A stretch of 64,000 bases of DNA from Sulfurospirillum barnesii SES-3 (lineage in GTDB: Bacteria; Campylobacterota; Campylobacteria; Campylobacterales; Sulfurospirillaceae), in assembly GCF_000265295.1 (NCBI RefSeq), contig NC_018002.1, positions 2,418,001 through 2,482,000 on the forward strand, given 5' to 3'. The translations under genes and the position numbers were made by a program. Of the stretch, positions 6,228 to 58,853 are shown piece by piece; the stretch's first letter is position 1, and the number at the start of each line of letters is the position of its first letter. Under the pieces are notes generated by a model. That model was not told the origin of the DNA and did no database searches. It saw only the letters and a list, made by a program, of their open reading frames with translations.

Positions 6228-6237
6228 TCACATACTC

Positions 6238-6504
6238 CTATCGATCAGGGTCTAGTTGACGCAACTCAAAATACTCTTTTTGTAAAATGGAATTCTCTTC
6301 TTTAAGGCTTTGAATCTTTTGGCTTAAGGTATCCTTGTCGGCTTGAAGATTTAAAAGAATATCTAAGGAGCTTTTTCCAAAAAGAACATCACCAATATAA
6401 AGACCAAAACCTATAACAAGGACAATAAGCGATAATAATTTTAAATAAAAGAGGGCTTTGCCCTCTTGTGGATTGTGTTCAAGTTCGTCTAAAACATCAC
6501 TCAT
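6238..6504 (-). CDS. FtsB/DivIC-like septum formation protein
   Basis: An 88-residue protein with one transmembrane segment (near residues 23-42, [20 protein letters not shown]). A short leucine-zipper coiled coil follows ([19 protein letters not shown], about 57-75). This is the architecture of FtsB/DivIC, bitopic proteins linking early and late divisome components. Its start overlaps the eno stop by 4 bases (ATGA), and FtsB next to enolase is a well-known arrangement in many bacteria, which strengthens the call. Confidence 0.75.
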
Positions 6505-8963: not shown

Positions 8964-9830
8964 GTGAAAACACTTAGCGTAGCGCACTCCCCCGATGCTG
9001 ATGATATTTTTATGTATTATGCCATCAAATTTGGCTGGGTTGACACAGGGAATGTCTGCTTTGACAATATCGCTCTAGACATTGAAACCCTCAACGTTGA
9101 AGCCCTTAAAACTACCTATGACATTAGCGCCATTAGCTTTGCCTTGTACCCAAAAATTCGAAACGATTATGCACTTTTACGCACAGCGGTCAGCTTTGGT
9201 GAGGGCTATGGTCCCAAACTGGTGAAGAAAAAAGAGAGCACGCTCAAACGTAATTTTAAAGTCGCCCTAAGTGGGACGCACACCACCAACGCTCTTTTAT
9301 TTAAAATCGCCTATCCTGAAGCACGTATTGTGTATAAAAATTTTTTAGAAATTGAACATGCTGTGCTTAGTGGTGAAGTAGATGCAGGGGTTTTGATTCA
9401 TGAGAGTATTTTAGATTTTAGTGATACCCTTGTGGTCGAGCGTGAGCTATGGGATATTTGGAAAGAGTTAACCCCCAATAAAGAGCTTCCTCTGCCTCTT
9501 GGCGGTATGGCATTGCGCCGTTCTATGCCATTATTGCAAGCGATTCATTGTGAAAAAACGCTCATTAAAGCGGTTGATGTTGCCCATACGCATCAACAGC
9601 TTCTCTCCAAAATGTTGCTTGAGCGTAATCTGGTTCGGGTTGATGATGCGACGCTGAAAACGTATTTGGGTCTGTATGCTAACGCTCACTCCATCGAAAT
9701 GAACGACCTACAATATGAAGCCATTGATACCCTTTTTGAACTTGGCTATCAGCATGGTTTTTACGACCAAAGCATCAAGGCAAAAGATTATCTTATTCCG
9801 CATGAATACGAAGCACTTAGGATGCGCTAA
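8964..9830 (+). CDS. mqnD: 1,4-dihydroxy-6-naphthoate synthase (futalosine menaquinone pathway)
   Basis: Periplasmic-binding-protein-fold enzyme of the alternative menaquinone route used by Campylobacterota. The N-terminal AHSPDADDIFMYYAI, the SGTHTTNALLF segment and the PLPLGGMALRR segment are typical of MqnD. I chose the GTG at 8964 because an AAGGA ribosome-binding site, merged with a TTACATGTAA copy at 8946-8955, sits at the right distance. An upstream ATG at 8934 would add ten unconserved residues. The stop overlaps the fliQ start (TAATG). Confidence 0.88.
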   Translation: MKTLSVAHSPDADDIFMYYAIKFGWVDTGNVCFDNIALDIETLNVEALKTTYDISAISFALYPKIRNDYALLRTAVSFGEGYGPKLVKKKESTLKRNFKVALSGTHTTNALLFKIAYPEARIVYKNFLEIEHAVLSGEVDAGVLIHESILDFSDTLVVERELWDIWKELTPNKELPLPLGGMALRRSMPLLQAIHCEKTLIKAVDVAHTHQQLLSKMLLERNLVRVDDATLKTYLGLYANAHSIEMNDLQYEAIDTLFELGYQHGFYDQSIKAKDYLIPHEYEALRMR

Positions 9831-17016: not shown

Positions 17017-17030
17017 CATTGTAGATTATA
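17017..17030 (-). other. Element right end (RE)/host junction with CT core
   Basis: Minus strand reads ATATAAT-CT-ACAATG. The element side plus core (ATAATCT) matches the 5' donor guide of the bridge RNA over 7 bases. The core plus host side (CTACAATG) is complementary to the 3' target guide at 7 of 8 bases. TATAAT is the last six bases of the element. Confidence 0.8.
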
Positions 17031-17117
17031 TGATAAAAGTCAAGAGAGGCATTTATTTTAAGAGATTTTGATTATTTTGAAGTTTTAGAGGGGTTAGAGG
17101 CGATTAAGCCTCTAGCC

Positions 17118-17336
17118 TCATTTTTGAGAGAGTTGAGTGATAAGCAAGTCGAGTTTTCCATCAATTTTAGCGATGAGTTTATGTTGTTCTTGCCCCTCTT
17201 TGATTGCTTTTTTGATGGCGATTACATCCGCTTCTAAGAATTTTACTTTCTCTCGTAAAGAAGTGAAGAAGCCAACAATAAAAACAATCTGAACGGCTAA
17301 AGTCAAAATAAATTCAGGCGTAACGGAGAAATTCAT
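17118..17336 (-). CDS. Small membrane/coiled-coil protein of the element (possible holin)
   Basis: 72 residues: a transmembrane helix near 8-27 (LTLAVQIVFIVGFFTSL), then an amphipathic coiled coil (KVKFLEADVIAIKKAI and onward). The layout recalls XhlA-type haemolysin/holin accessory proteins, but no clear family match is visible. It is the last gene of the 119/114/72-residue operon, overlapping the stop of the gene upstream (TAATG). A GC-rich hairpin (stem TAGAGGC/GCCTCTA, about 17092-17113) lies at its 3' end. Confidence 0.7.
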   Translation of the reverse strand: MNFSVTPEFILTLAVQIVFIVGFFTSLREKVKFLEADVIAIKKAIKEGQEQHKLIAKIDGKLDLLITQLSQK

Positions 17337-17680
17337 TAAGCGCCTACTTTAACTTCTCTCATTTGAACAAAAAGCTTATCAGCTTTAACGCCATTGAATG
17401 TTTTACCAATCAGTGCATTTTGAATCTCGACATCGGTTACACCAATTTTAGCCAAAAAGCCAAAGTAGGTTTTAGAACCTGTGTCATTAGAAACCTGAAC
17501 ACGCACATCATGGTAACCTGTAATACCTGTATCAGTACCACTCTCAGATTTTTTTACAAAACCCTCGTATTCGCCATCAAGCATAGCAGAACAAAAAGCA
17601 CTTGCAGAAGTATCATCCGCAGGAACAGAAAAAGACTTAGTGGTCGCCCCCAAAGTGTTATAAATCAATGTTTTTGCCAT
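17336..17680 (-). CDS. Small beta-rich protein, paralogue of its neighbour; putative virion protein
   Basis: 114 residues, no signal peptide or membrane segment, rich in predicted short beta strands. It is distantly related to the 119-residue product upstream: both contain a LMxG-type segment (AMLDGEYEGFVKK here, PLMEGKLEIYDKK there), a GT-x-T run and a basic strand at the same spacing. Adjacent paralogous small proteins at the front of an operon suggest abundant structural components, perhaps capsid subunits. No database family is recognised, so this is inference from context. Confidence 0.75.
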   Translation of the reverse strand: MAKTLIYNTLGATTKSFSVPADDTSASAFCSAMLDGEYEGFVKKSESGTDTGITGYHDVRVQVSNDTGSKTYFGFLAKIGVTDVEIQNALIGKTFNGVKADKLFVQMREVKVGA

Positions 17681-17683
17681 GTT

Positions 17684-18043
17684 TTACTCCTTAGCACTTA
17701 ACGAACCAATAAGATTCGAATAATCACATTTTGCATCTGATTCAAAACCACAATCAAACGCACCGATAACAATCGCTTTACAATCAGCAAAGCTCTTACC
17801 TTGCTTAATGTGAGGAACGCTAACAGAAGCACTCATAGTAACATTTTTAGAAATCTTTTTACCCACAGAAAAACGAATATAGTTCATTTCAGTAGGAACG
17901 CTTGTAGCCGTACCACCCTCGAATTTTTTATCATAAATTTCGAGTTTACCCTCCATAAGAGGTTGAAGCACTGCTAAATCAGCCGCCGACATATCGGCAT
18001 AAACAGTCTTAACAGTTTTACCGCCAATGATTTGTTTAATCAT
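17684..18043 (-). CDS. Small beta-rich protein, paralogue of its neighbour; putative virion protein
   Basis: 119 residues, cytosolic-looking and beta-rich, with three cysteines in the C-terminal part (DCKAIVIGAFDCGF, KCDY). First gene of a three-gene operon preceded by a strong GGAGAAAAAAA ribosome-binding site and by the inverted-repeat element at 18110-18180. The relation to the 114-residue neighbour is described there. High-level expression and a structural role are likely; function is not proven by any recognised domain. Confidence 0.75.
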   Translation of the reverse strand: MIKQIIGGKTVKTVYADMSAADLAVLQPLMEGKLEIYDKKFEGGTATSVPTEMNYIRFSVGKKISKNVTMSASVSVPHIKQGKSFADCKAIVIGAFDCGFESDAKCDYSNLIGSLSAKE

Positions 18044-18109
18044 TTTTTTTCTCCTTAATTTCTTGTAATTTGTTTTTGCAAAAACTAAAAAGAAGTTTAT
18101 AAAAATAAA

Positions 18110-18180
18110 AAAAAATCAAATCATGGGTGTTTTAAAACACGATAAAAAGGGCTTTTCAAAAGGGGGTGATTTGATTTTTT
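18110..18180. repeat. Inverted-repeat hairpin element, copy 1
   Basis: Fourteen-base arms, AAAAAATCAAATCA (18110-18123) and its exact complement (18167-18180), enclose a 43-base loop with GGGTGTTTTAAAACACG and two AAAAGGG runs. A second copy with conserved arms and loop core is at 21754-21826 in the same orientation. Each copy lies just upstream of an element operon (119-residue gene here, 254-residue gene there). Possible roles: operator/attenuator, origin, or packaging signal. Confidence 0.8.
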
Positions 18181-18231
18181 AAAAAAGCTCTTATTATTTA
18201 AAACATATTTTAAAGAAAAAAGGAGGCTTTT

Positions 18232-18546
18232 TTGACAATAGACAATGAAGATTTTAAAACATTGTTTGAGGTTGCGTTTGATATTACAGACGTAGGGGTA
18301 TTAAAATGTTTTGAGTGTGGGGAAAGGTTAGAAGAAAAAGAGGATTTGAGCGGTGTTACATGTAAAAACGCTCATGAGATAGGTTATCTTGAATACATAG
18401 CAAAATATGCAAACATGTTAAAAGATTTCTTTGATAATGCAGAAATGAGCATGGATTTCTCAAAAAAGGTTATCACGCCATCAAGTGTTCTTTATTGTGG
18501 GAATAATGTACTTTTTGCAAACAAAACAATTTTAAGGAGTTTATAA
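18232..18546 (+). CDS. Small protein with zinc-ribbon-like cysteines
   Basis: 104 residues starting at TTG 18232, chosen because AGGAGG lies five bases upstream. Residues CFECGE followed by VTCKNAH give a CxxC-x(n)-C-x3-H arrangement that could bind one zinc, reminiscent of small phage regulators such as Mu Com, without a firm match. First gene of the plus-strand block, opposite in direction to the rest of the element. Confidence 0.65.
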   Translation: MTIDNEDFKTLFEVAFDITDVGVLKCFECGERLEEKEDLSGVTCKNAHEIGYLEYIAKYANMLKDFFDNAEMSMDFSKKVITPSSVLYCGNNVLFANKTILRSL

Positions 18547-18548
18547 AA

Positions 18549-19166
18549 ATGCAACATAGAGACGTAAAAGCAGGAGATGTTCACGTCATTCATAATTTTA
18601 AATTTATGAGTGAAAGTGAAAGAGATTTATATAAAGCGAAAGAGGAAGATTTAGACAAAATTTGCCTAGTGGTTGAGCCTTATGGGTTTTATGCATTAAA
18701 GAGTATTGAGCCGATTCAATGGAAACCACTTAGCACAATTACTGTATCCGTGGAAGATTTTGAGGTGTATACGAAAGAGCAGATAATCACAATGCTTAAT
18801 AAAAAAGCAGAGGCTTACAACGTGAGCGGAACGGAATACAAATGTGGATATACACGTAATGGAAAAGAGGTGTTTGGAATAGAAGTTGATTGTGGGGCAT
18901 TGCCAAATGCAACAACTAAAGCAATCACAATTCCAAATCATAACTCATTGAACAAATATTGGATTAACTCAGGGGAAAGCTACACAATGCCAAAAGACAG
19001 AAGCTCAACAATGCCCCTACCTTATATTCCTGTAAATGCAAACACTGCGAATAATGGAGCATGGATAAATCTCTTCCTACAAAACGGAACTATAAAAATT
19101 CAAACTTATGCAAATCTAACAATATACACAGAAACAAAAATTGTTTTAAACTATACAAAGGAGTAA
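18549..19166 (+). CDS. Putative receptor-binding protein with tail-fibre-like C-terminus
   Basis: 205 residues. From about residue 95 the sequence YKCGYTRNGKEVFGIEVDCG, then ALPNATTK, and the final IYTETKIVLNYTKE follow the layout of a widespread C-terminal domain of siphophage tail fibres (G-x-x-IY/F-x-K-x-x-D-x-GALPN-x-TTK ... LxYTK). The N-terminal 90 residues would attach it to the virion. This is the best single hint that the element is viral. It is second in the plus-strand block, three bases after the zinc-ribbon gene. Confidence 0.75.
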   Translation: MQHRDVKAGDVHVIHNFKFMSESERDLYKAKEEDLDKICLVVEPYGFYALKSIEPIQWKPLSTITVSVEDFEVYTKEQIITMLNKKAEAYNVSGTEYKCGYTRNGKEVFGIEVDCGALPNATTKAITIPNHNSLNKYWINSGESYTMPKDRSSTMPLPYIPVNANTANNGAWINLFLQNGTIKIQTYANLTIYTETKIVLNYTKE

Positions 19167-19168
19167 AA

Positions 19169-19366
19169 ATGCACAGTTACATTATGCAGAACGAAAAAGA
19201 TTATCGCACAGCGGTAAACGGTCAAGGGCATGGGGTTGTTTTAATTAAAAAAGTTGGAGAGCTTGAAAAAGCTTTTGGGTATTTTAAAAGCATTGATAAA
19301 GATATGATCGCTCTTTCAGAGCGAGAAGAAGCAGAGATAAACGCTATCATAAACCCTACGTTTTAA
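19169..19366 (+). CDS. Small hypothetical protein of the element
   Basis: 65 residues from ATG 19169, with AAGGAG at the right spacing and start three bases after the receptor-binding gene. The sequence is mixed alpha/beta (HGVVLIKKVGELEKAFGYF, then SEREEAEINAI), with no membrane segment or recognisable domain. Its position after a fibre-like gene would suit a fibre chaperone, but that is a guess. Confidence 0.65.
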   Translation: MHSYIMQNEKDYRTAVNGQGHGVVLIKKVGELEKAFGYFKSIDKDMIALSEREEAEINAIINPTF

Positions 19367-19403
19367 GAGAGTGTGCTTTGCACATTCTCATCCTCTTTTT
19401 TTT
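19367..19403 (+). terminator. Rho-independent terminator of the plus-strand block
   Basis: GAGAGTGTGC (19367-19376) pairs with GCACATTCTC (19380-19389), one mismatch, TTT loop. A run of T follows at about 19395-19403. Confidence 0.85.
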
Positions 19404-19713
19404 ACATGTAAAAATCATCCTATTACGTCACGCTTAAAAGAGAGGAGGCTTGCGCCTCAGCACTTTGTTACATAACCGTTTTAAAGAATGGGGAATTAAG
19501 AGCGGGCTTTTAGGGTGGCGTTTGGAAAATAGTTTGCATTATTTTATGTATTTTGCGTTCTATTCTTTATTGCAGTTTGACCGAGTGGCGATGAGGCAAA
19601 GCCTACTTTGTGCTACGGCACTCTATCACTACAAACGGGGGCAAAGCCCCAGATTTGTAGTGATGTGCCTATACCCCTAAAGGGGTGAAGAGAAGAGAGA
19701 AAGAATGCTAAAG
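19404..19713. other. Hairpin-rich non-coding region between convergent element operons
   Basis: About 310 bases without a convincing gene. It contains GAGGCTTGCGCCTC (19446-19459 region), AGGCAAAGCCT (19594-19604) and a very stable hairpin with an 11-base outer stem (ATCACTACAAA 19625-19635 / 19654-19664) and inner GGGGC/GCCCC. A further hairpin is ACCCC/GGGGT (19673-19686). Clusters like this form the intergenic origin/packaging region of ssDNA phages, but bidirectional termination is a simpler function for part of it. Confidence 0.6.
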
Positions 19714-20076
19714 CTAACCCATTTTAGTTTTAAAAAGTGCACTATAAAGACTATCAATATTCTGACCTTCTATTTCTAGGTTTTGGATACAAAGTTGTGC
19801 GATTTCTTTTTCATTTTTAGAGAGTTTTACATTATTGATAATAATCTGCTTAGCCATGCGTGTATCTGTTTTCATAATGCCTTTAAAGAGCGGATGATAG
19901 AGCATATCATCCACGGGGGGCATGGTGTCATTTTCGTACTCTATTTTTAAAATCTCAGTCACTTTCATTGTGCTGATGGACTCATAAAAGGTGAGCACAG
20001 CGCCTACACTTTTTGCTTCAATGTGGTTTACGATAGTGCGTGAACCTTGTTTAAGTTGCACTCTATATTTTGGCAT
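19714..20076 (-). CDS. Hypothetical protein of the element
   Basis: 120 residues, soluble. N-terminal half with YRVQLKQGSRTIVNHIEA and a YES motif suggests a small alpha/beta domain; the C-terminal half is helical and charged (KLSKNEKEIAQLCIQNLEI). No family recognised. Last gene of the 254-288-120 operon, one base after the preceding gene. Confidence 0.7.
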   Translation of the reverse strand: MPKYRVQLKQGSRTIVNHIEAKSVGAVLTFYESISTMKVTEILKIEYENDTMPPVDDMLYHPLFKGIMKTDTRMAKQIIINNVKLSKNEKEIAQLCIQNLEIEGQNIDSLYSALFKTKMG

Positions 20077-20943
20077 TTATTCAGCTCCTAACATTTTTGA
20101 AATTCTTTTGACGTAGTCTTTTGATAATTCACACTCTTTCAAACCATTTTCAGCAGAATCAACGCCTAAAAGATTACAAATTGATTTTAAATTATCGTTT
20201 GGCTCAACATATGGAGAACCACCTAGAATTTGATTTAATCGTTTAAGGTACTCTTTCATAAGTTCACACTCTTTTAAGCCATTTTCAGCGGTATCTACGC
20301 CTAAGAGATAGCAAATTTGTTTTAGGTTTTCGAGTTGAACGGGGGAGGGAGTAGCGCCTAGGTTTTTAACTATTGGGGAAAAGTCAGAGTAACAACATTC
20401 AATACCATCAGCAAAACAAAAAAAATCAAACATTTCATAATGCCAACGAATGGCAGTACTATTAGGATATTTATCAAAATAAAATGTTTTTGTAAAAAAA
20501 GTATTAAAACCGTTATGACCAACATTACCAGAAGTGTAAGGATTCACACAATCAAAAAGAAAAGAATAAGCACTATCTAAAGAAGAATCAAAATGGTGTT
20601 CCCCATTAACATAAACAGAAGTATCCTCAACAGAGGAAAAACTAGGAGGAAATAGTGGACCATAAGTATAAGGAGTATGACGGCAAAGAGCATAAACATC
20701 ATCATACCTAATAGCGAAAAGAGGAGGAGAAACTCCAGTAAGACCACCCTGACCAGTAAGCCAAAATTCAAGATTATAGAAAAAAATGGGATTATTATTA
20801 TTAGGAGCATAAAAGGGAATAAAAACAAACTCACCAGTAAAAACATTCTCAACAGGGTCAAAAATAGGAAATTTGTTATAACCATTAACGACATTAAGAT
20901 GAGAAACAAGTGAAAGCAAATGAGAACGCAAAGGAGACATCAT
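20077..20943 (-). CDS. Putative virion protein with two C-terminal repeats
   Basis: 288 residues. The first 200 are aromatic, proline- and glycine-rich with many likely beta strands (NPIFFYNLEFWLTGQGG, TPYTYGPLFPPSF), typical of an exposed structural protein such as a spike or capsid subunit. The last 75 residues are two tandem copies of a helical unit of about 37 residues (LLGVDTAENGLKECEL and LLGVDSAENGLKECEL), suggesting duplicated protein-binding helices. No family recognised. Ribosome-binding site AAGGATAG upstream; middle gene of its operon. Confidence 0.75.
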   Translation of the reverse strand: MMSPLRSHLLSLVSHLNVVNGYNKFPIFDPVENVFTGEFVFIPFYAPNNNNPIFFYNLEFWLTGQGGLTGVSPPLFAIRYDDVYALCRHTPYTYGPLFPPSFSSVEDTSVYVNGEHHFDSSLDSAYSFLFDCVNPYTSGNVGHNGFNTFFTKTFYFDKYPNSTAIRWHYEMFDFFCFADGIECCYSDFSPIVKNLGATPSPVQLENLKQICYLLGVDTAENGLKECELMKEYLKRLNQILGGSPYVEPNDNLKSICNLLGVDSAENGLKECELSKDYVKRISKMLGAE

Positions 20944-20951
20944 AACTATCC

Positions 20952-21716
20952 TTATTTATTAATATAACCCATTGTATTTACAAGCTGAAAAAACGCCTCT
21001 GAAAGCCCCGTTACTTTGCCGTTTGTGTCTTTTACAAACATGAAATCAGCAACGTGGTTCAAGTCTTCAATGTTGAGGACTGCACCCGTCTCACGACCTA
21101 GCATTTTTTTAATGAGCATTTCATCTTGAGCGGTGAATGATTTTGTGAAAAGTTTAAACAAAAGGGTTTCATTGTAACGGGATGCCATTGCGTTGCCGAA
21201 TTGAAAATGGAGGTTTTCCCGTTGGTAGACTGATTGCTTAGTGTTTAAAGCAGAGTTATAAGTATCAGTAGAACGGGGAGTTGGGTTAGTTAAAGCAGAA
21301 CCATTAGCCTTAAAACCTTGATGTGTAGCAACTACATTTGCCAAAGCGATATTTTCTTGACGGGAAGAATTAAAGTAAGGAATACGCTTTAATAACTTAA
21401 TACCTTTATATTTCCTTAATTTGTTTAAACCTCTTTTTGCAGGGTCAATAATCAAGTAACCAAAAAGAGCCTCTGCAACATTAAAAATTCTTTCAATGAT
21501 TTTTTCTTGATATTGAACACCCAAAAAAACTAAACCAAACATAGATACACTCATAGCCGATTCAACCGCTTCTTTTAAAATGGGATTATCAATATCTTTG
21601 GTAAAATCTTTCATAATTTTACGTGATTCTTCATAAGCGGTCATATAGAGAATTGTTTCAAAAAACTCCTCTGCAGTGTTCTGCCCTATTTGCTTAATTT
21701 GTTTACCATCTGACAT
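20952..21716 (-). CDS. Hypothetical membrane-associated protein of the element
   Basis: 254 residues. A hydrophobic stretch near 50-70 (SVSMFGLVFLGVQ) and another near 78-92 (VAEALFGYLIIDP) may contact membrane. The remainder is helical and basic (RGLNKLRKYKGIKLLKRI). First gene of the 254-288-120 operon, preceded by the second inverted-repeat element. A role in virion assembly or as minor capsid protein is possible; no domain is recognised. Confidence 0.7.
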   Translation of the reverse strand: MSDGKQIKQIGQNTAEEFFETILYMTAYEESRKIMKDFTKDIDNPILKEAVESAMSVSMFGLVFLGVQYQEKIIERIFNVAEALFGYLIIDPAKRGLNKLRKYKGIKLLKRIPYFNSSRQENIALANVVATHQGFKANGSALTNPTPRSTDTYNSALNTKQSVYQRENLHFQFGNAMASRYNETLLFKLFTKSFTAQDEMLIKKMLGRETGAVLNIEDLNHVADFMFVKDTNGKVTGLSEAFFQLVNTMGYINK

Positions 21717-21753
21717 AAAACATCCTTTTTTTTTAAAGAATGTTAAAATAAAA

Positions 21754-21826
21754 CAAAAAAATCAAATCATGGGTACGTTAAGACACGATAAAAAGGGAAT
21801 TCAAAAGGGAGGTGATTTGATTTTTT
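21754..21826. repeat. Inverted-repeat hairpin element, copy 2
   Basis: Fifteen-base perfect arms (21754-21768 and 21812-21826) around a 43-base loop. The loop shares ATGGGT, ACACGATAAAAAGGG and TTCAAAAGGG with copy 1 at 18110-18180, and similarity continues into the right flank (CTTATTATTTA). It lies between the end of the small-membrane-protein operon and the start of the 254-residue gene. Confidence 0.8.
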
Positions 21827-21832
21827 TAAAAA

Positions 21833-21853
21833 GAAAAAAGCCAAATCAATGGC
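21833..21853 (-). terminator. Terminator at the end of the small-membrane-protein operon
   Basis: On the minus strand AGCC-attgattt-GGCT is followed by six T. It begins just past the stop of the 69-residue membrane protein. Confidence 0.6.
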
Positions 21854-21856
21854 TTA

Positions 21857-22066
21857 TTATTTATCTCTAACATATTGTTTTAAATGTTCAGGAACTTCCA
21901 TTTTTTTTCCAAAAGCTTTTTCATAAGCTTCAATATACTGTTCAACAGGATTTGGAGCAAAATAATAATCATAAATATCACGACCAAAAAAGACAAAAAA
22001 GAACAAAGAAAAAAATAAAAAAATATAAAGCCATCCAAAAAATTGTTCTCTTATCTTTTTAAACAT
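21857..22066 (-). CDS. Small single-pass membrane protein, paralogue 2
   Basis: 69 residues from ATG 22066, chosen for the AAGGGA ribosome-binding site and alignment with its neighbour. One transmembrane helix near residues 10-29 (FGWLYIFLFFSLFFFVFF), then a soluble tail with EAYEKAFGKKMEVPEHLK. The tail is nearly the same as that of the 70-residue protein upstream, so the two are tandem duplicates. Possibly a virion membrane protein or minor coat protein. Confidence 0.7.
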   Translation of the reverse strand: MFKKIREQFFGWLYIFLFFSLFFFVFFGRDIYDYYFAPNPVEQYIEAYEKAFGKKMEVPEHLKQYVRDK

Positions 22067-22084
22067 TTTACAATCCCTTTTCAC

Positions 22085-22297
22085 CTAATTTTTAGGAAGA
22101 GTCTCACGAAGATAGTCAGGAATATCCATTTTTTTACCATAAGCCTTTTCATATGCTTCCATCTGTATTTCTAAAGAAGAGGGGATAGTAGGAAAAATAA
22201 AAGGCTTGACTACAAACCAAAGAAAAAGAAAAAAAACAATAACCTCCAAAAAAATATAAAGCAAACCTAAAAAATCATCTTTTATTTTTTGAAACAT
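22085..22297 (-). CDS. Small single-pass membrane protein, paralogue 1
   Basis: 70 residues from ATG 22297; a longer start at 22342 would lack a counterpart in the paralogue. It begins MFQKIKDDFLGLLYIFLEV, parallel to MFKKIREQFFGWLYIFLFF of the next gene, with one transmembrane helix and the tail EAYEKAYGKKMDIPDYL. Function unknown; likely related to virion or envelope given the surrounding genes. Confidence 0.7.
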   Translation of the reverse strand: MFQKIKDDFLGLLYIFLEVIVFFLFLWFVVKPFIFPTIPSSLEIQMEAYEKAYGKKMDIPDYLRETLPKN

Positions 22298-22386
22298 ATT
22301 TACCAATCCCCAACCAATTAATATTAAAGAGAAAAAAAACAAAAATAATCAACAATTTATATTTTTCATATAACACTTTTCATTGC

Positions 22387-22608
22387 TCATTTTGGAAGAT
22401 AACTAGATTTATAATTATCTAAATTTTCTTTTCCACCCAGGCCATAATACATTTTCTTATAAATATCAGCTGAAGAAGGATAACCAAGATAATTAAATTT
22501 ATAAGCTAGAAAAACACAAAAAAGAAAAAAGAAAAAAAGAAAAAAAACTTTAAAAATATGCAAAATAAAAAAACGCTTATAATTTAAATTAAATTTATTT
22601 TTTAACAT
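22387..22608 (-). CDS. Small single-pass membrane protein, more distant relative
   Basis: 73 residues with a basic N-terminus (KNKFNLNYKRF) and a phenylalanine-rich transmembrane helix near 14-36. The soluble tail carries YKKMYYGLGGKENLDNY, a loose echo of the EAYEKAYGKKM tail in the next two genes. Start overlaps the stop of the 371-residue gene (TAATG), so the two are translationally coupled. Confidence 0.7.
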   Translation of the reverse strand: MLKNKFNLNYKRFFILHIFKVFFLFFFFLFCVFLAYKFNYLGYPSSADIYKKMYYGLGGKENLDNYKSSYLPK

Positions 22609-23723
22609 TATACCGAACCTCCCAATCCCTTAATAATATTTTCATAAATTACAGAATTATGCTCATAACCATAAATAGATGATATATCAAAAGGGGTAAC
22701 GATGTCAATATCTTCTTCATCTAATTCAAAATTATTAATATCTGTCTTTTCAACAGCTACAACCGCATTTTTAACCAATTCAGCTTCACGAGGTTCAAGC
22801 TTTGCAATGGTGTTCCCGTCTAAATCTTTCACAGTTTGAGCGGTTTTATTATATTCAAAAGCCTCTTTACTTAGCTCAATCTCCTCAGAGCGTAAAGCGT
22901 AATGTTCTTTTTCTTGTTCATTGTCAACTGCTTTTAATTTAACAAGCTCATCAAGAGCATTATTCACACCTACAATAGAAGCATTAAAAGGTTTAACATT
23001 TTCAGAAAGTTTATCTAAAGAGGTAGCAACAACTTGAACGGATGGATTAGCAAATTTTTGAGCTTCAATTTGTAAAGTGGCGGAAGATATATCTAAAAGT
23101 TGTTGTTGAATCAACAAACTTGATTTTAACGTAGTATTAAGATTTACAAGTTCTTTACTCAAGGAGTTAGAAAGAACACCAACCGCCTCAACAATTGCGC
23201 CAACACCTTTGGCGTTTACAGATGCAAGAGAATCGACAGATTTTACAAGAGCTTTAGAGTTATTGGATAAAACGGTAGGGAGAGCTTCTCCTTGAGAATA
23301 AGCAGTAAAAGGAGTAGCCACAACCTCAGGCGCTTTCTCTAAAACCTTATGATTCATTTCTTCCAAATCTTTTAAAGCAGCAAGTTGAGTTTCATACGAT
23401 TTTTGAAGCGACTCATAACGCTCTACAGCTTGAAGCTCAGAATCTGTTAAAGATGCTTTTTCATCATCTGTAAAATAATCATAAATAAGAGGAGCCGCCA
23501 AAGAAACGGCTAAGCCTAAAAGATTAGACCTACCAATAGTCTTCCCCCCAGCTTTACCGTTTGAGCCAAAAACAGATTCTACAGACTTATTAACAACGGT
23601 GCTAACATTTGTAGAAATAGGAGGAGTAGCGACAGTAGGAGCAGGAACCTTTACGGCTCCATTACCTACATATTTAACATTGTTTGAGGGCTGATTAACA
23701 TAATCAACAGCAACCGCACCCAT
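22608..23723 (-). CDS. Putative structural protein with long helical region
   Basis: 371 residues. A Pro/Thr/Val-rich N-terminus (about 1-60) is followed by a hydrophobic segment near 72-84 (LLGLAVSLAAPLIYDYF). A long alpha-helical, partly coiled-coil region with heptad patterns follows (about 90-290). The GSNGKAGGKT stretch is not a proper Walker A motif, so I do not call an ATPase. The architecture could suit a minor virion or DNA-pilot protein. Coupled to genes on both sides by TAATG overlaps. Confidence 0.7.
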   Translation of the reverse strand: MGAVAVDYVNQPSNNVKYVGNGAVKVPAPTVATPPISTNVSTVVNKSVESVFGSNGKAGGKTIGRSNLLGLAVSLAAPLIYDYFTDDEKASLTDSELQAVERYESLQKSYETQLAALKDLEEMNHKVLEKAPEVVATPFTAYSQGEALPTVLSNNSKALVKSVDSLASVNAKGVGAIVEAVGVLSNSLSKELVNLNTTLKSSLLIQQQLLDISSATLQIEAQKFANPSVQVVATSLDKLSENVKPFNASIVGVNNALDELVKLKAVDNEQEKEHYALRSEEIELSKEAFEYNKTAQTVKDLDGNTIAKLEPREAELVKNAVVAVEKTDINNFELDEEDIDIVTPFDISSIYGYEHNSVIYENIIKGLGGSV

Positions 23724-24280
23724 TATGCCACCTCTTTGACTGAAACGTCAGGTGCCATCATAAACAAGTCATCTTCATCTTTTAAAACATAAACAATCAT
23801 GTATGAGCTAGAACTAGAATCATTCCAAAGCATTTCCGAAGAAACAACAGTATATTCATTTTTCTTACCCGTTACGGTAACCTCTGTGCCATCAGGCAAA
23901 GAACCATATTTACCATTCAATGAGGGGAATGAAGAGGATGAAGCAGATGAAAAACTCTGAACAATACGCTCTAAAGTCGGAAACGAATCAATTGTAAAAT
24001 TTTCCATTAAAACAGGATTACCCAAAACAGGACTAAAAAAAATAGAAAAGGGAGTAGAAGGCTCACATGTAAAAGTAAAATTATAGGTAACCCCATCAAT
24101 CTCAAAAGAACCAGAAGTAGAGTATACTATATCCCCAAAATTCCAACCACGATAAGTAACTTTACCCTCATCATCCATGCATCTAAAAACAAGAATAAAG
24201 GTATTTTCAGAACCATACCATTCCCCAAAGATAGACTTAGAACGACGGTCAAGGTATTCAAGCATTACAGAAATTTGCAT
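23723..24280 (-). CDS. Hypothetical beta-rich protein of the element
   Basis: 185 residues, beta-rich with aromatic strands (ENTFILVFRCMDDEGKV, YRGWNFGDIVYSTSG) and a serine-rich linker near 110-120 (SFSSASSSSFPS). No membrane segment or known domain. Neighbourhood and composition suggest a virion surface or assembly protein. Its stop overlaps the start of the 371-residue gene. Confidence 0.7.
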   Translation of the reverse strand: MQISVMLEYLDRRSKSIFGEWYGSENTFILVFRCMDDEGKVTYRGWNFGDIVYSTSGSFEIDGVTYNFTFTCEPSTPFSIFFSPVLGNPVLMENFTIDSFPTLERIVQSFSSASSSSFPSLNGKYGSLPDGTEVTVTGKKNEYTVVSSEMLWNDSSSSSYMIVYVLKDEDDLFMMAPDVSVKEVA

Positions 24281-24291
24281 AAGAGCCCCTT

Positions 24292-24612
24292 TTACTTCAT
24301 AATCGCATAATTTTTATCAAAAACAACATCAAGAGACTTTAAAGACTCATGAACGAGCTTAACATTATCAAGCGTAGGGGCTTGATTAAGCTCAACTTTT
24401 TGGATGTAATCTGCTAGAATTTCAGAACAACGGGTTAAGCCTATGACATCATTTTTAAGAACGTCATTATTTGATAAAGTAGAATCAGTATTAAACTTTT
24501 CCACAACCTCAGAAGCAACCAATAAACCACCACCTATTGCAGGGTTAAACACCGTAGCAATTTTACCAACGCCATTTAAAACAGCGCTCCAATCATAACT
24601 TTTTAAATCCAT
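24292..24612 (-). CDS. Hypothetical small protein of the element
   Basis: 106 residues with one weak hydrophobic stretch near 18-35 (ATVFNPAIGGGLLVASEV) and an otherwise helical charged body. It lies between the M15 peptidase and the 185-residue gene. A holin or accessory lysis role is possible from position but not supported by strong hydrophobicity. Confidence 0.65.
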   Translation of the reverse strand: MDLKSYDWSAVLNGVGKIATVFNPAIGGGLLVASEVVEKFNTDSTLSNNDVLKNDVIGLTRCSEILADYIQKVELNQAPTLDNVKLVHESLKSLDVVFDKNYAIMK

Positions 24613-24621
24613 TTTTTTTCC

Positions 24622-24993
24622 TTATTTCATAATTTTAATTATTGGATTTGGTTTGTCTAAATCCAAATCAACGTGAATAAATGTAGGGTAAATTAACACA
24701 CGACAAAACCCAACATTTAAAAGAGCCGACAAAATAACAAATCTTGCACCATCGCTAGGGATAGAAATATCCACCGCCAATCCTTTAACATGTGCACTAT
24801 CCTTAACACCTCCTATCTTTTTATTATGTGCTTCACAACGGCACGCTGAGTTAATTTTAAAAGGCATATTTGCCAACTTCCTAGCATCTTCCAACATCAA
24901 AACAAGCGTATAGCTAATATTGTTCAATGAACAACCGCATTTACATGTAAACTCTTCTTTTTTGAAGTGTTTTATAGTTTTCCAATCAATCAT
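24622..24993 (-). CDS. M15-family peptidase, candidate endolysin of the element
   Basis: 123 residues. The zinc ligands of the Peptidase_M15_3 family are visible: His68 in SAHVKGLAVDIS, Asp75, and His107 in FIHVDLD. The supporting segment is FKINSACRCEAHNKKIGG. Such small peptidases cleave peptidoglycan cross-links and act as phage endolysins. An extra CKCGC cluster near residue 17-21 is typical of the N-terminal strand in this family. Start is two bases from the rep stop. It is unrelated in sequence to the chromosomal Tat-exported M15 protein at 12717. Confidence 0.85.
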   Translation of the reverse strand: MIDWKTIKHFKKEEFTCKCGCSLNNISYTLVLMLEDARKLANMPFKINSACRCEAHNKKIGGVKDSAHVKGLAVDISIPSDGARFVILSALLNVGFCRVLIYPTFIHVDLDLDKPNPIIKIMK

Positions 24994-24995
24994 TT

Positions 24996-26411
24996 TTAAA
25001 CCGCCTCACCTAAGAATTTTTGGAATTTTTTAATAAAATAATCTTTTGAATCGTATGCCACATCCAAATGGTACATATGGTCGTAAGATTGCTCTATATG
25101 GTCAAATACACGATTAACAAAGGTATGTTTTTGCTGATAGAGAATCTCATCATCTCTTTCTAATTTTTCAAGACGATTAAAACGGTCTAAGCGTCTGGAG
25201 TAAACATCTTGCAAGACTGTTTTTTCATGTTTAGATTGTGTGTATTCTTCAACCTTATTCATAGCATCACAAATTGTAGAGGGTAGCACATCTCCATAAT
25301 GGCTAAGGGTAGTACTCAAGAAGGCTTTAAAGGCATTATGAACATAAAGAAAGTCAGTTGTAAACGGTTTTTTAAATGTTTCTATAACGTCCGTTTTTAC
25401 ATGACCATTAAAGGTTTGAATCGTATCCCACAGGGGGTGAATTTCACTTCTTTGAAAGCGTTTTCGAATTGTCTCAGGTTCAAGCAAAAGCTTAGAGCCA
25501 TCTTTGTTAGTTTTATAGCCTAGCATGATTTCTAACGTGTTTTTATCGTCCAAATCTCTTAAGCTAAAATCATCCAAGCAACGCCCCCAAATGTTGTTAA
25601 GGTTATTTAAAATCACCTCAAAACCATCTAGCACTTCATCATTAATCACCATGTTTTTAAGTTTTTCACGCCTTAGTTGAAACTCAATTCTAAAGACTTC
25701 TTGTGATTCGCTATAGTTAGGATTTGTTTTCCAAAGCGTTTGAATAAAGCCTTTATTTGGGAATTTTTGTATTTCTTTTGTTTTATTGTAAACACGCATT
25801 AAATAATCACCACCGCCACGCATGAAGCCTTGAAATTTGCGCCCGTTTTGATAAAAAGAATCCGTGGAGGAGCTTTCATCATTGTAATAGCGATTGTTTC
25901 TAGTTCGTGATTTAATGCGGTGAAAATCAAGAACGGAAAAGGTATAGCCTTGAACGTCACAGTGCAAATGGATTTCACTGATTTTGATTTGAAAAGCGCT
26001 GATAATGTTCTCTTTTAAAAATTGATTGATTTTTTGAACAGCGCCAAGATAGCCAAAGCGTTGAAGAAAAGAGGAGCGGAACTCAACTTTGCAAAAAGGA
26101 CTTTGATCACATGTGATTGTTATTTTTTTGAGATGAATTGTAACGTCAGCGTTTGCAATCGTAACGCTAAAGCCTCTTACTGTGGAGGGAGCCACTTGAA
26201 ACAAAGAGCCTTTAAAATCGTGCTGAAATTGTGAAACATTTTTGTTTTCATTGCGATTTGTTTGAGATTGTGATTTAATCCCTAGTAATTTATCAATGAG
26301 GAGATTATAAAAGCTTATGTCTTTTGAAGTTATCAATAAAGAGAGGTAAAGGTGATATTTTAATGTGTCTACATTTTGCCAAAGTTTCACGAATTTTTGC
26401 TCTTTTTGCAT
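24996..26411 (-). CDS. Rolling-circle replication initiator, Rep_trans-like
   Basis: 471 residues. Motifs expected of the Rep_trans family (as in RstA of CTX phage and pT181-type Rep) appear in order. ISEIHLHCDVQGY (about 144-156) supplies the metal/acidic strand; FQGFMRGGGDYLMRVYNK (193-210) includes the probable nicking tyrosine Tyr208; VFRIEFQLRREK (239-250) supplies the conserved R-x-E. The C-terminal 200 residues are helical and may bind origin DNA. It would nick one strand to start rolling-circle synthesis. Hairpins that could be its binding site lie directly upstream (26443-26516). Confidence 0.85.
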   Translation of the reverse strand: MQKEQKFVKLWQNVDTLKYHLYLSLLITSKDISFYNLLIDKLLGIKSQSQTNRNENKNVSQFQHDFKGSLFQVAPSTVRGFSVTIANADVTIHLKKITITCDQSPFCKVEFRSSFLQRFGYLGAVQKINQFLKENIISAFQIKISEIHLHCDVQGYTFSVLDFHRIKSRTRNNRYYNDESSSTDSFYQNGRKFQGFMRGGGDYLMRVYNKTKEIQKFPNKGFIQTLWKTNPNYSESQEVFRIEFQLRREKLKNMVINDEVLDGFEVILNNLNNIWGRCLDDFSLRDLDDKNTLEIMLGYKTNKDGSKLLLEPETIRKRFQRSEIHPLWDTIQTFNGHVKTDVIETFKKPFTTDFLYVHNAFKAFLSTTLSHYGDVLPSTICDAMNKVEEYTQSKHEKTVLQDVYSRRLDRFNRLEKLERDDEILYQQKHTFVNRVFDHIEQSYDHMYHLDVAYDSKDYFIKKFQKFLGEAV

Positions 26412-26442
26412 TGAGTACCTTTTTTAATTTTTGTCCCACTTA

Positions 26443-26516
26443 GCCCCCCTTGATAAACCATTGTGGGGGCAAAGTGATTTTTGCTTATTAAGTCGGTGCG
26501 AGGTTTAAACACCGAC
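26443..26516. other. Two stable hairpins upstream of rep; candidate double-strand origin
   Basis: GCCCCC (26443-26448) pairs with GGGGGC (26465-26470). GTCGGTG (26492-26498) pairs with CACCGAC (26510-26516) across an 11-base loop. They lie in the 140-base gap between rep and the gene before it. Rolling-circle initiators usually act on hairpins close to their own gene, so this is a plausible nick region. Confidence 0.5.
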
Positions 26517-26524
26517 CAAATAAA

Positions 26525-26550
26525 CAAAAAAAAAGGGCGGTTAAGCCCTT
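26525..26550 (-). terminator. Terminator after the ssDNA-binding-like gene
   Basis: Minus strand AAGGGC-TTAACC-GCCCTT, then nine T (26534-26525), directly after the stop of the 157-residue gene. It would limit read-through into rep. Confidence 0.8.
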
Positions 26551-26553
26551 TGG

Positions 26554-27027
26554 TTATGCGACCTTTTCCCAACTCTTCCAAATAGGGGAAAGGACTTCTT
26601 GCCCAAAATCTTTAACAAATCCTAAAGCACCCTTTAACATGTAAGTAGCGCCCATTTCTAAAGAGGTATACATCTCTTCACTCACGGTTTGGGTTAGAGT
26701 ACCGCCTTTAAACGTGAAAGTGATTTTGTAACGGTTTGGGTAAAATGTAGGAAAGCCATCAGAATCAAGAACGGGTAAACGGCTATCTTTGTCTATTCTC
26801 TCTTTCCCTTTGATAATCTCTTTTGCGGTAATTTCAGCGGATAAAGTCACCTCATTGGCGTTTACTCTTTGATTGTGTAATGCCATCATACGGTTAAAAT
26901 CTTCCATGGTGAAATTCCCTGCTAAAGGATTCATATCTTTAATCTCTACATTGTTTACAGCCTCACCGTTTTCAATCGTAGTCACAGGAACTTGCTTACC
27001 ATTAATTTCTTTCATTGTTGTTTTCAT
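26554..27027 (-). CDS. Putative ssDNA-binding protein
   Basis: 157 residues. The central part (about 55-140) has alternating strands (EVTLSAEITAKEII, RYKITFTFKGGTLTQTV, TYMLKGALGFV) consistent with an OB-fold-like barrel. It stands immediately before the rolling-circle initiator, the usual place of an ssDNA-binding protein in filamentous and related phages. No motif proves it, so the call rests on context and fold impression. Confidence 0.5.
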   Translation of the reverse strand: MKTTMKEINGKQVPVTTIENGEAVNNVEIKDMNPLAGNFTMEDFNRMMALHNQRVNANEVTLSAEITAKEIIKGKERIDKDSRLPVLDSDGFPTFYPNRYKITFTFKGGTLTQTVSEEMYTSLEMGATYMLKGALGFVKDFGQEVLSPIWKSWEKVA

Positions 27028-27218
27028 GCTATGTTTTCCTTTAAAAATTTTTCTTTTTGATATGAATTTAAAATTCGATTTGACACCAATTGAGGTGAAA
27101 CGCCACTTTCTCGAATAATATCTGCTCTAGTGATTGAACATTTTGCCCCACCTTTTTTTAATAAATTTAAAACAGATACGTAAATTTCATAATCTGCTTT
27201 TGATACTTCAAATCTCAT
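27024..27218 (-). CDS. Small helix-turn-helix protein
   Basis: 64 residues. ITRADIIRESGVSPQLVSNRILNSYQ (split across about 29-54) reads as a helix-turn-helix with a recognition helix beginning at the SPQLVSN turn. A 4-base overlap with the ssDNA-binding-like gene puts it in the replication operon. It probably regulates element transcription or copy number. Confidence 0.65.
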   Translation of the reverse strand: MRFEVSKADYEIYVSVLNLLKKGGAKCSITRADIIRESGVSPQLVSNRILNSYQKEKFLKENIA

Positions 27219-27224
27219 TTTTTT

Positions 27225-27380
27225 TTAAAACCTATCTAAAACACGACCACGAGAATCTTCTACAATTACATCAAATGTATTTTTACAAAAAAGATTTTTT
27301 ACCTTTTGAGCTTTACTAACCGCTTGAGCATAAGTAACGCATGTATCTATCACATTGCCATTCATTAAAATTTTAAACAT
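27225..27380 (-). CDS. 51-residue hypothetical protein
   Basis: Reads MFKILMNGNVIDTCVTYAQ at the N-terminus and ends GRVLDRF. A good AGGGG ribosome-binding site precedes the ATG at 27380. It overlaps the preceding gene by 16 bases and is followed 6 bases later by the helix-turn-helix gene, so it fills the operon without a gap. Composition is that of a small alpha/beta protein. Function unknown. Confidence 0.6.
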   Translation of the reverse strand: MFKILMNGNVIDTCVTYAQAVSKAQKVKNLFCKNTFDVIVEDSRGRVLDRF

Positions 27381-27676
27381 AATTGCCCCTTTTCACGGAA
27401 AGCATTAAAACGAAGAACAATCTCATGAGCCAATCTTTGAGCGCTCCCAAAAGTGCGTTCATAGTTGTAAACATTGCCCGAATGGTAAAGCTTTATCTCA
27501 CCGCATGGATATTTAGCGCCCTCATGTTCAAGATGAAGAAGAACAGAACGAAAGGTTAAATCATCATGTACAGAATAGCCGAGAATAAAATCATTAATAA
27601 AAAGCTCTTTATCAAATTGAAAAAGAGGAAATGGAGAGGGTTTTTTTGGAATCTTATTAAAAACAATATCAGACAT
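27365..27676 (-). CDS. Hypothetical protein of the replication operon
   Basis: 103 residues, soluble, no known domain. Contains SVLLHLEHEGAKYPCGEIKL and a C-terminal helix (SAQRLAHEIVLRFNAFREK). Its start overlaps the 3' end of the recombinase gene by 8 bases, so the recombinase and this gene are almost certainly cotranscribed and coupled. This ties the IS110-type recombinase to the replicon rather than to a separate insertion sequence. Confidence 0.7.
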   Translation of the reverse strand: MSDIVFNKIPKKPSPFPLFQFDKELFINDFILGYSVHDDLTFRSVLLHLEHEGAKYPCGEIKLYHSGNVYNYERTFGSAQRLAHEIVLRFNAFREKGQLCLKF

Positions 27677-28625
27677 TTACGAATCCTTGATTAAATTTAA
27701 TGTAAACAGCTCTAAAGATATGAGCCATACAAGCTACAAGAGCCACCATTTTTGCTTTTCCACCCAAGACCATACGGTCATATTTTTCTTTGATAATGGG
27801 ATTAAAACGAAGAGAGACCATAGCCGACATGTAGAGAAGTTTTCTAACGAGAGAACTTCCACGCTTAGAAATTTTCTCTCTTTTATAAACAGAAGAGCCA
27901 CTCTCAAAAACACGAGGTGAAAGACCTACAAAGCTTTGAAGTTGTTTCAATGTGTAATTTTGAGAACTAAGAAAAATGGGGATGAGTTCTAAAAGAAGAG
28001 CATAACCTACACCCTTAATATCACTTTTAATTGATTCAACATGGGGATAAAGGGCAATAAGAACTTTTTGCGCTTCTTTTGAAAGTTGTTTTTTAACTTC
28101 CTTGATTAAAGAAAGAAGGGAAGATAAGGCATTATCAAGATAGAGAACATCATTATCTTTTTGGGAATGGATAAAATTTTTTAACTGTGTATTCAACTTA
28201 CTGAGCAATGACAAAGAAGCGTTATATTTTTTGAGTATTTTTTGAGATTGATTGAACGTAGTTTTAAAATCATCTTCACTTAATGTTTGGATGTATTTTG
28301 TAATACCTAAAGAATCAATGACATCATTTTTTTTACGAGCATTTAAATGTTTTAAGTAATGATGCATGGTATAAGGATTAACCATCACCTGCTTAAAATT
28401 AGCCTCATGGCAGAGCTTTTGGAGTACGTGCATATAATTTGAAGTAGCTTCATAGCCAAAAAAGAAAGAAGATTTTTTATAGGTTTTTTGGAGATAATCA
28501 AAAAAGCCTAAAATCGAAGATTCATTATTAAAGATAGTCAAACTATCATATTTTAATCCATCAAGAGAAAAAGAAATATCCAAAGTATCTTTGGAAACAT
28601 CAACACCTACAAAAACTTTACTCAT
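27669..28625 (-). CDS. IS110-family DEDD recombinase acting as the element's integrase
   Basis: 318 residues. The RuvC-like N-terminal domain carries the DEDD residues Asp9 (FVGVDVSKD), Glu59 (GYEATSNY), Asp101 and Asp104 (KNDVIDS). The C-terminal Transposase_20 domain has GLSPRVFESGSS with Ser242, at the position of the catalytic serine in this family, and ISKRGSSLVRKLLYMSAM. IS110 enzymes recombine donor and target DNA at a dinucleotide core using a bridge RNA encoded next to the gene. Here that RNA is recognisable upstream and its guides match the ends of the complete 11.8-kb element. Ribosome-binding site AAGGGG. Confidence 0.93.
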   Translation of the reverse strand: MSKVFVGVDVSKDTLDISFSLDGLKYDSLTIFNNESSILGFFDYLQKTYKKSSFFFGYEATSNYMHVLQKLCHEANFKQVMVNPYTMHHYLKHLNARKKNDVIDSLGITKYIQTLSEDDFKTTFNQSQKILKKYNASLSLLSKLNTQLKNFIHSQKDNDVLYLDNALSSLLSLIKEVKKQLSKEAQKVLIALYPHVESIKSDIKGVGYALLLELIPIFLSSQNYTLKQLQSFVGLSPRVFESGSSVYKREKISKRGSSLVRKLLYMSAMVSLRFNPIIKEKYDRMVLGGKAKMVALVACMAHIFRAVYIKFNQGFVNV

Positions 28626-28649
28626 GGTAAACCCCTTTTTATGTATAAT

Positions 28650-28773
28650 GTGTACTTCTTTTTACTTGTAAACGTGCTCATATGACACTAGATTATTATT
28701 AAAAGTTAGTACACGAATTCCCCTTATCTACAATACAGGCTTGAAGCCTTAGTACAATAACAGGATGAATTCG
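28650..28773 (-). ncRNA. Bridge RNA with target-binding and donor-binding loops
   Basis: Minus-strand transcript, minimal region. Loop 1: outer stem CGAATTC (28773-28767) / GAATTCG (28720-28714) and apical hairpin AGGCTTCAAGCCT (28749-28737). Its 5' guide TTATTGTACT (28760-28751) matches the host flank of the LE at 9 of 10, and its 3' guide TATTGTAGAT (28735-28726) matches the plus strand at 17017-17026 at 9 of 10. Loop 2: outer stem GTGTACT (28714-28708) / AGTACAC (28656-28650). Its 5' guide ends ATAATCT, identical to the RE end, and its 3' guide TTACAAG (28671-28665) is complementary to the LE start CTTGTAA. The true 5' end is probably nearer 28795. Confidence 0.85.
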
Positions 28774-28795
28774 CATATCGGAATAACGAGAGAAT

Positions 28796-28810
28796 CTTAC
28801 AAGTACAATA
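28796..28810 (-). other. Element left end (LE)/host junction with CT core
   Basis: Minus strand reads TATTGTA-CT-TGTAAG. Host side plus core matches the 5' target guide of the bridge RNA (TATTGTACT, 9 bases). Core plus element side (CTTGTAA) is complementary to the 3' donor guide (7 bases). The core dinucleotide is 28803-28802. Confidence 0.8.
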
Positions 28811-55408: not shown

Positions 55409-55547
55409 ATCGTGAATTAAATCTATGTCATATTATAACGAAATAGGCTTAATTCACCATTCTTTTGGTGATTTTAGTATTGTCTAGTCAACATCACGCT
55501 TTACACTTAATAAGGAAGTGAAATAGCATTATCATACGTAATAATAT

Positions 55548-58462
<2,915 letters not shown>

Positions 58463-58852: not shown

Positions 58853-58853
58853 A

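Follow-up and report, generated by a model that had tools for sequence, protein, structure and literature searches.

Tyrosine and serine integrases recognise their attachment sites by protein, and a change of site therefore requires evolution of the protein. Bridge-RNA-guided recombination is itself a known mechanism of the IS110 group (Durrant 2024, PMC11208160; Hiraizumi 2024, PMC11208158), and natural reprogramming between insertion sequences has already been described for the seekRNAs of ISEc11 and ISXne4 (Siddiquee 2024, PMC11187229). IS110 transposases are also known from filamentous phages, which they are thought to integrate, as reported for the Thermus phages Zuza8, Zuza27 and phiOH16 (PMC11437467), and the Neisseria filamentous phage Nf carries an IS110 transposase as well (Kawai 2005, cited in PMC11437467); the passages of that paper on the Thermus phages make no mention of a guide RNA. 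Here we describe an integrated element of 11.8 kb in a 64,000-nt stretch (the window) of the closed 2.51-Mb genome of Sulfurospirillum barnesii SES-3, in which a predicted bridge RNA lies upstream of the gene for an IS110-group recombinase. We consider the element very likely to be temperate and phage-like, and to use bridge-RNA-guided recombination for its integration and probably for its excision.

Guides, target sites and element ends

A sequence-only reading of the window had proposed that the four guides of the bridge RNA match the two ends of the element, and its coordinates are all correct. The guides of the first, target-binding loop, placed at TTATTGTACT (28760-28751) and TATTGTAGAT (28735-28726) on the minus strand, have their counterparts in the host flanks, with TATTGTACT at 28810-28802 (minus strand) and CATTGTAGAT at 17017-17026 (plus strand). 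Those of the second, donor-binding loop match the element ends, ATAATCT recurring at 17029-17023 and TTACAAG finding its partner CTTGTAA at 28803-28797. The left guide of the first loop had been drawn ten bases long; nine of them match, and the first falls outside the match. The pairing stretch is thus 9 nt for the left target guide (LTG; seven bases plus the CT core) and 7 nt for the right target guide (RTG; CT plus five), with a possible U.G pair at the eighth position of the latter. In the 147 nt at 28796-28650 the guides follow the canonical order of LTG, RTG, left donor guide (LDG) and right donor guide (RDG), and their matches all centre on a single CT core. Among 20,000 dinucleotide-preserving shuffles of these 147 nt, none contained all four guide words and 48 contained two or more.

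Recombinase matches were found in 10 of 24 same-genus genomes, some of which hold only distant ones. Ten copies from seven genomes that keep the left end and the loops were compared (the window, L025, L026, L027, L028, L029, L030, L031, L032 and L033); matches of 25-39% identity were not counted as copies, and the fragments L007, L015, L018 and L022 were assigned to loci L032 and L033. The guides were extracted from the loop with a text rule blind to the flanks. In nine of the ten copies the seven non-core bases of the LTG are identical to the copy's own left flank, while in L030 six of the seven agree and the seventh would form a possible G.T pair. When compared with the flanks of the other copies (90 cross pairs), the LTGs match at 2.34 of 7 bases on average and at 5 at most, and the observed match sum was reached by none of 1,000,000 permutations. 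The RTG can be tested in seven of the ten copies, because L029, L032 and L033 lack a right end; it is perfect over its five non-core bases in six of these and agrees at four of five in L030. All ten copies have a nearly constant donor loop, whose guides match the joined ends, with a possible wobble in L027, where the RDG reads TTATAAG. As in IS110 bridge RNAs, the guides of the target loop therefore match both the left and the right target. By sequence comparison, each same-genus copy occupies the site predicted from its own first loop.

Empty sites in related genomes bear out the ends that had been proposed for the 11.8-kb element. The left-flank gene of the window element is present in 22 of the 24 genomes, and the right-flank gene adjoins it in 20 of the 21 genomes without an element at this site. 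Between the two flank genes, the intact 14-mer TATTGTACTACAAT is found in 2 of the 21 (L035 and L055) and 13 of its 14 bases in L036; the remaining 18 loci reach at best 12 anywhere in the locus. Across all 24 genomes the exact 14-mer occurs in two only, both times at the orthologous site, and allowing for one mismatch brings the number to 18. The complete guide-specified 14-mer is also present in 10 of 22 genomes lacking the element at the L026 site, which lies ahead of a gene read as folD, and in 3 of 16 at the L027 site, ahead of a gene read as a flavin oxidoreductase. For L030, none of 21 loci reaches 14 (the best has 13), and no complete 14-mer is expected there because the L030 guide agrees with the site of its own copy at no more than 12 of 14 positions. 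These counts cover the sites of the window, L026, L027 and L030, with L120 included in the empty-site counts and L160-L163 standing outside the L030 count. CT is all that filled and empty sites have in common, and insertion is thus precise and without further duplication; the same-genus copies likewise share the CT core with no duplication beyond it. Element length, 11,779 bp in the window, is counted from the left CT (28803-28802) up to the base preceding the right CT, and ranges from 10.4 to 13.2 kb in the seven copies with both ends.

Two side observations concern these sites. The L030 guide, GTACATGCT, is intermediate between two host alleles, GTACATACT and GTGCATGCT, that other genomes have at the orthologous site, as if wobble pairing might let one guide serve several hosts. 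The left end of several copies lies close to the start codon of an outward-reading host gene, at offsets of about -6 (L026), -2 (L027), -1 (L028), 0 (L030), +7 (L031), -22 (L033), -67 (L025) and -52 (window, 28803), with L032 (-298) as an exception and too little flank in L029. The starts were read by eye from open reading frames (ORFs) in these few cases; we do not claim the preference as a targeting rule, and it could reflect selection against gene disruption.

Pairs of near-identical copies within one genome show how the site can differ. Genome G003 holds L027 and L028, which are 96.9% identical and encode identical recombinase proteins; their LTGs are ATCACTCCT and AACCATACT, respectively, and each matches its own site. 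The substitutions between them are concentrated in the first 600 alignment columns and in a stretch near 6,900-8,100; beyond these, five substitutions lie near 9,100-9,500 and a few gaps near 5,800-6,300. In genome G006, L026 and L031 are 99.97% identical over 11,881 bp, and only about 80% identical in the first ~1.2-1.36 kb, which comprise the bridge-RNA region and the recombinase. Two routes to a new site are thus observable in these pairs, namely what appears to be local divergence of the target loop together with the 5' part of the gene, and what appears to be replacement of the whole guide-recombinase module. The half-guides also change singly, as the window and L025 have the same right guide and different left guides. 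The coordinates of the window element and its features are collected in Table 1.

Table 1. Features of the integrated element and its flanks, in window coordinates
Feature	Position	Strand	Evidence or remark
Integrated element	17025..28803	-	11,779 bp; guide-specified ends and uninterrupted site between the same gene pair in relatives
Left target plus core, TATTGTACT	28802..28810	-	Host flank; identical to LTG
Right target with core, CTACAAT	17018..17024	-	Host flank; complementary to RTG
Left donor (element right end plus core), ATAATCT	17023..17029	-	Identical to LDG
Right donor (element left end), CTTGTAA	28797..28803	-	Complementary to RDG
Predicted bridge RNA	28650..28787	-	Fold prediction and region kept in ten copies; 5' end inferred from junction promoter
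Target-binding loop, outer stem CGAATTC/GAATTCG	28714..28773	-	Sequence, fold, stem tests
LTG, TATTGTACT	28751..28759	-	Equals host left flank
Apical hairpin, AGGCTTCAAGCCT	28737..28749	-	Covaries among homologues
RTG, ATTGTAG	28728..28734	-	Complementary to host right flank
Donor-binding loop, outer stem GTGTACT/AGTACAC	28650..28714	-	Nearly constant in same-genus copies
LDG, ATAATCT	28690..28696	-	Equals element right end
RDG, TTACAAG	28665..28671	-	Complementary to CTTGTAA at element left end
-10-like TAAGAT	28794..28799	-	Element left end; not the sole candidate
-35-like TTGACT	17038..17043	-	Element right end; 17 bp from TAAGAT after end joining; not the sole candidate
IS110-group recombinase, 318 aa	27669..28625	-	PF01548 2.8e-13, PF02371 5.4e-15
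64-aa protein	27024..27218	-	Sub-threshold winged-helix similarity
Replication protein (Rep), 471 aa	24996..26411	-	Weak relation to gpII endonucleases of Thermus phages OH3, phiOH16, Zuza27
M15 peptidase / endolysin	24622..24993	-	PF08291 6.7e-16; phrog_894 3.6e-31
254-aa family-specific protein	20952..21716	-	Kept in distant relatives
288-aa protein, variable N-terminal and conserved C-terminal part	20077..20943	-	Putative receptor-binding protein
119-aa conserved protein	17684..18043	-	Putative structural protein
114-aa conserved protein	17336..17680	-	Confident AlphaFold2 model, no convincing structural match

Recombinase, RNA fold and junction promoter

The recombinase aligns over nearly its entire length with those of IS621 (8wt6) and ISCro4 (9t56), and has both the DEDD RuvC-like domain and the Tnp domain with a catalytic serine that characterise the IS110 group. 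Its residues D9, E59, D101, D104 and S242, invariant in six aligned homologues, are taken as the equivalents of IS621 D11, E60, D102, D105 and S241, the correspondence being counted by hand along the alignment with the 2-residue offset of the deposited chain. Mutation of these IS621 residues is described as abolishing recombination (PMC11208158).

Upstream of the recombinase, as in IS110 elements, a two-loop structured region is predicted from the stems present in the sequence and from covariation in the first loop. Each loop had been proposed to close with a 7-bp outer stem; both stems are there, yet they cannot be 7 bp long at once because one G (28714) is common to both. The minimum-energy fold of the window sequence accordingly has outer stems of 6 and 7 pairs, together with the AGGCT/AGCCT hairpin, and parts of the two target guides pair with one another because the target is nearly palindromic. 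The first-loop stem and the apical hairpin are present in the minimum-energy folds of all eleven sequences considered (the ten copies and a distant relative, L085).

Because the guides differ, MAFFT misaligned the target loop, and the stems were therefore tested by permutation rather than with a covariance model, after the loop had been cut into segments by rule and the hairpins picked by hand. In the apical hairpin, all 11 sequences have standard pairs at positions 1-4, with up to four pair types per position, and 6 of 11 have one at position 5; 18 of 20,000 permutations of the 3' halves reached this count of standard pairs. When own and exchanged halves of the hairpin were compared by energy, 30 of 100,000 permutations did as well. 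For the outer stem of the first loop, the strands of the same sequence pair better than exchanged ones, a result reached by 0 of 100,000 permutations. The proposal of a bridge RNA thus finds support in these covarying first-loop stems and in insertions that track the guide in the ten same-genus copies and in several distant ones. A scan of the window with Rfam gave no hit for the bridge RNA and found rRNA and tRNA only. An ordinary rRNA operon with tRNA-Ile and tRNA-Ala lies on the minus strand at 55293-60529.

In the seven copies with both ends, joining the ends would place TTGAC[AT] 17 or 18 bp from TAAGAT (7 of 7); the predicted junction in the window is ATATAATCTTGTAAGA. Excision would create a putative promoter, with its -35 element from the right end and its -10 element from the left end, for the RNA and the recombinase, in possible likeness to the promoter described as being reconstituted by the joined ends of IS621 (PMC11208160). 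The RNA-bound recombinase would then bring together the circular element as donor and the chromosome as target, its serine would cut beside CT, and the strands would be exchanged as in IS621. New sites would be reached through changed guides, either by local change of the target loop or by a swap of the guide-recombinase module between related elements.

Distant relatives, cargo and nature of the carrier

At the level of the order, 35 of 398 genomes hold recombinase relatives (E <= 1e-20), including those of the same genus. Eleven distant regions were taken out, of which ten (L085-L094) were examined and L095 was left out; a contig scan gave two loci with a related element, taken as the same-genus contigs G016:C24 and G020:C47. 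In six loci from other families (L086-L089, L093 and L094), further element genes stand in the same order; L090 and L091 have little but the recombinase in common with the element, and contig ends truncate L085 and L092. A repeat of 9-10 nt between LTG and flank, by the left-end motif or site, is present in L085, L087, L088 and L092 and weaker in L093 and L094, with no trusted repeat found in L086, L090 and L091 and no flank available in L089. The right target predicted by the RTG lies directly behind the right-end motif in the clade formed by L087 (7 of 7), L088 (8 of 8) and L089 (6 of 6, to the contig end). The core of L087 and L088 appears to be TT instead of CT. Several distant relatives thus seem to follow the guide-flank rule, and others could not be confirmed. 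One of these loci, L094 (G133:C15), contains two tandem sets of related element genes within 20 kb.

Scanning the window proteins against Pfam and PHROGs revealed two clear families besides the recombinase, an M15 endolysin-like peptidase and a replication protein. Rep matches phrog_33635 (2.6e-7) and, weakly by tblastn, the phages OH3, phiOH16 and Zuza27 (2e-4 to 3e-4). The lysis gene varies among relatives: behind Rep, in the position of the M15 peptidase of the window, L086 carries a phage lysozyme, and L087 has an M15_4 peptidase near the opposite end. The 288-aa protein, variable at its N-terminus and both conserved and internally repeated at its C-terminus, resembles a receptor-binding protein and represents a second variable region of the element (about 6,900-8,100 in L027/L028). 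The model of the 114-aa protein has a pLDDT of 93, that of the 119-aa protein is poor (pLDDT 51). With the former, Foldseek returned nothing at E <= 0.001 in PDB or BFVD; its best VIA-align match to ribosomal proteins (Z 5.0 over 47-48 residues) is not read as a relationship. Three plus-strand ORFs at 18232-19366, opposite to the other element genes, have matches in L025, L026 and L031 and none in L027, L028 and L030 (E <= 1e-5), and are likely an accessory block.

Inoviruses are generally released without lysis genes. We reject the inovirus label for this element, which has an M15 endolysin in the window and a phage lysozyme in L086, and in which no Zot/gpI assembly ATPase family was hit among the scanned proteins, a set that does not include every ORF. 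The carrier is phage-like and probably a virus. If it were instead a satellite or an integrative plasmid, with a replication protein of the rolling-circle type, this would account for the absence of Pfam or PHROGs hits to capsid, ATPase, portal or terminase families at E <= 0.001 in the proteins scanned, from which several small ORFs were left out, and for the lack of any relative of the 254-aa protein among 50,697 phage records (E <= 0.01). We regard this alternative as unlikely, since lysis genes that differ from member to member, a protein with a variable tip and a Rep weakly similar to filamentous-phage gpII all speak for a virus, as does a related element in a viral contig: an alignment of the 254-aa protein finds one IMG/VR contig that carries its relative together with the recombinase. 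Single-sequence searches of the viral contigs with the recombinase and Rep, and an alignment of the 114-aa protein, gave no match. As no capsid, packaging or assembly gene was recognised among the scanned proteins, the 254-aa protein falls outside the phage records and a single viral contig holds a relative, we call the element phage-like and probably a virus.

Weighing the reading and comparison with known systems

Several observations weigh against RNA-guided integration of a phage-like genome. The support comes from sequence throughout, with transcript, circle and recombination being predictions, and no capsid or packaging gene was recognised among the scanned proteins. The permutation test for the RTG is weaker than that for the LTG (4 of 5,040 permutations reach the observed match), because the window and L025, and likewise L027 and L028, have common right targets. 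The full two-loop form is the minimum-energy fold in only 5 of the 11 sequences (window, L025, L026, L032 and L085), whereas the first stem takes bases of the donor stem in L027, L028, L030, L031, L033 and, partly, L029. Promoter-like matches lying wholly within the right end equal the junction promoter in score in the window, L026 and L031. Among the distant loci, neither a trusted LTG match nor the predicted right target was found in L090 and L091, the left end of L086 is differently shaped, and L093 and L094 rely on repeats. L086 and L090 also hold 9-11-nt repeats that could not be placed, the core bases of L087 and L088 do not all pair with the guide, and the distant repeats were picked by position with no shuffle control.

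The match between guide and flank could also be a relic: imprecise excision or gene conversion would have captured host sequence in the left end, and the recombinase would locate its site through protein contacts. In the window the LTG and the left flank do form direct repeats with a spacing of about 50 bp, which grows in copies whose left end is longer, and conversion could exploit this geometry. However, the right guide is complementary rather than identical to its partner at the opposite end, at a distance of more than 10 kb, and both guides occupy fixed places within a covarying stem-loop. Moreover, element-free genomes hold the uninterrupted site, and one and the same recombinase protein goes with different left targets in L027 and L028. 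We therefore judge this explanation highly improbable. That an ordinary IS110 insertion sequence sits beside cargo that it does not move is scarcely credible: the recombinase and RNA alone would form a typical insertion sequence of about 1.2 kb, but the end that the donor and target guides match lies 11.8 kb off, the two-ended copies are all of at least 10.4 kb with orthologous element-free sites, and the gene order extends to the six distant loci named above.

Guided integration of a phage-like genome is thus the reading that we retain. We further think it likely that these elements form a family of small temperate Campylobacterales viruses that has so far gone unrecognised, with an attachment site chosen by a reprogrammable guide RNA. 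A change of guide or a module swap would act as a natural attachment-site switch, allowing near-identical prophages to share a cell while residing at separate sites, most of them at the 5' ends of conserved host genes. A phage-like genome in which the same recombinase protein goes with different 9-nt guides and different sites would be a natural example of RNA-programmed lysogeny. This suggests a fresh look for bridge RNAs in phages that encode IS110 'transposases'; the elements also provide pairs of guide and target diversified by nature, and a natural payload of 10-13 kb, for work on bridge recombinases. None of the open-access matches listed, judged by titles and the beginnings of abstracts and with subscription papers and preprint servers outside the scope, describes a bridge RNA used by a phage; priority for a naturally retargeting phage-like genome is not established.

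Compared with the Thermus phages, the element has in common an IS110-type recombinase at one prophage end, as outlined in PMC11437467, and a distantly related Rep; unlike it, those phages have annotated coat and assembly genes, which were not found here. Just upstream of the IS110 transposase, and across the record start, Zuza27 (L164 6406-6680) and Zuza8 (L165 6499-6773) have a conserved, strongly structured non-coding stretch of 275 nt that is a candidate bridge RNA. TldR likewise associates a temperate phage with an RNA-guided protein, but according to the description in PMC13418256 it regulates transcription and does not integrate.

The closest parallel is with IS621 and the IS110 group. 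As far as their description in PMC11208160 and PMC11208158 goes, the likeness extends to a DEDD recombinase with a catalytic serine, an RNA region upstream of it in a long left end, a CT core, a target loop with a 9-nt LTG and an RTG, a donor loop, and a first loop that varies while the second is conserved. The RTG pairs over 7 nt here, as against 4 nt in IS621 and longer stretches in some orthologues, and the carrier is a phage-like genome of 10-13 kb instead of an insertion sequence of about 1.3 kb. As outlined for ISEc11 and ISXne4 (PMC11187229), related elements with different target-matching stretches occupy different sites. Unlike those insertion sequences, the elements described here are phage-like genomes, in which the whole module appears to have been swapped between copies that are otherwise 99.97% identical.
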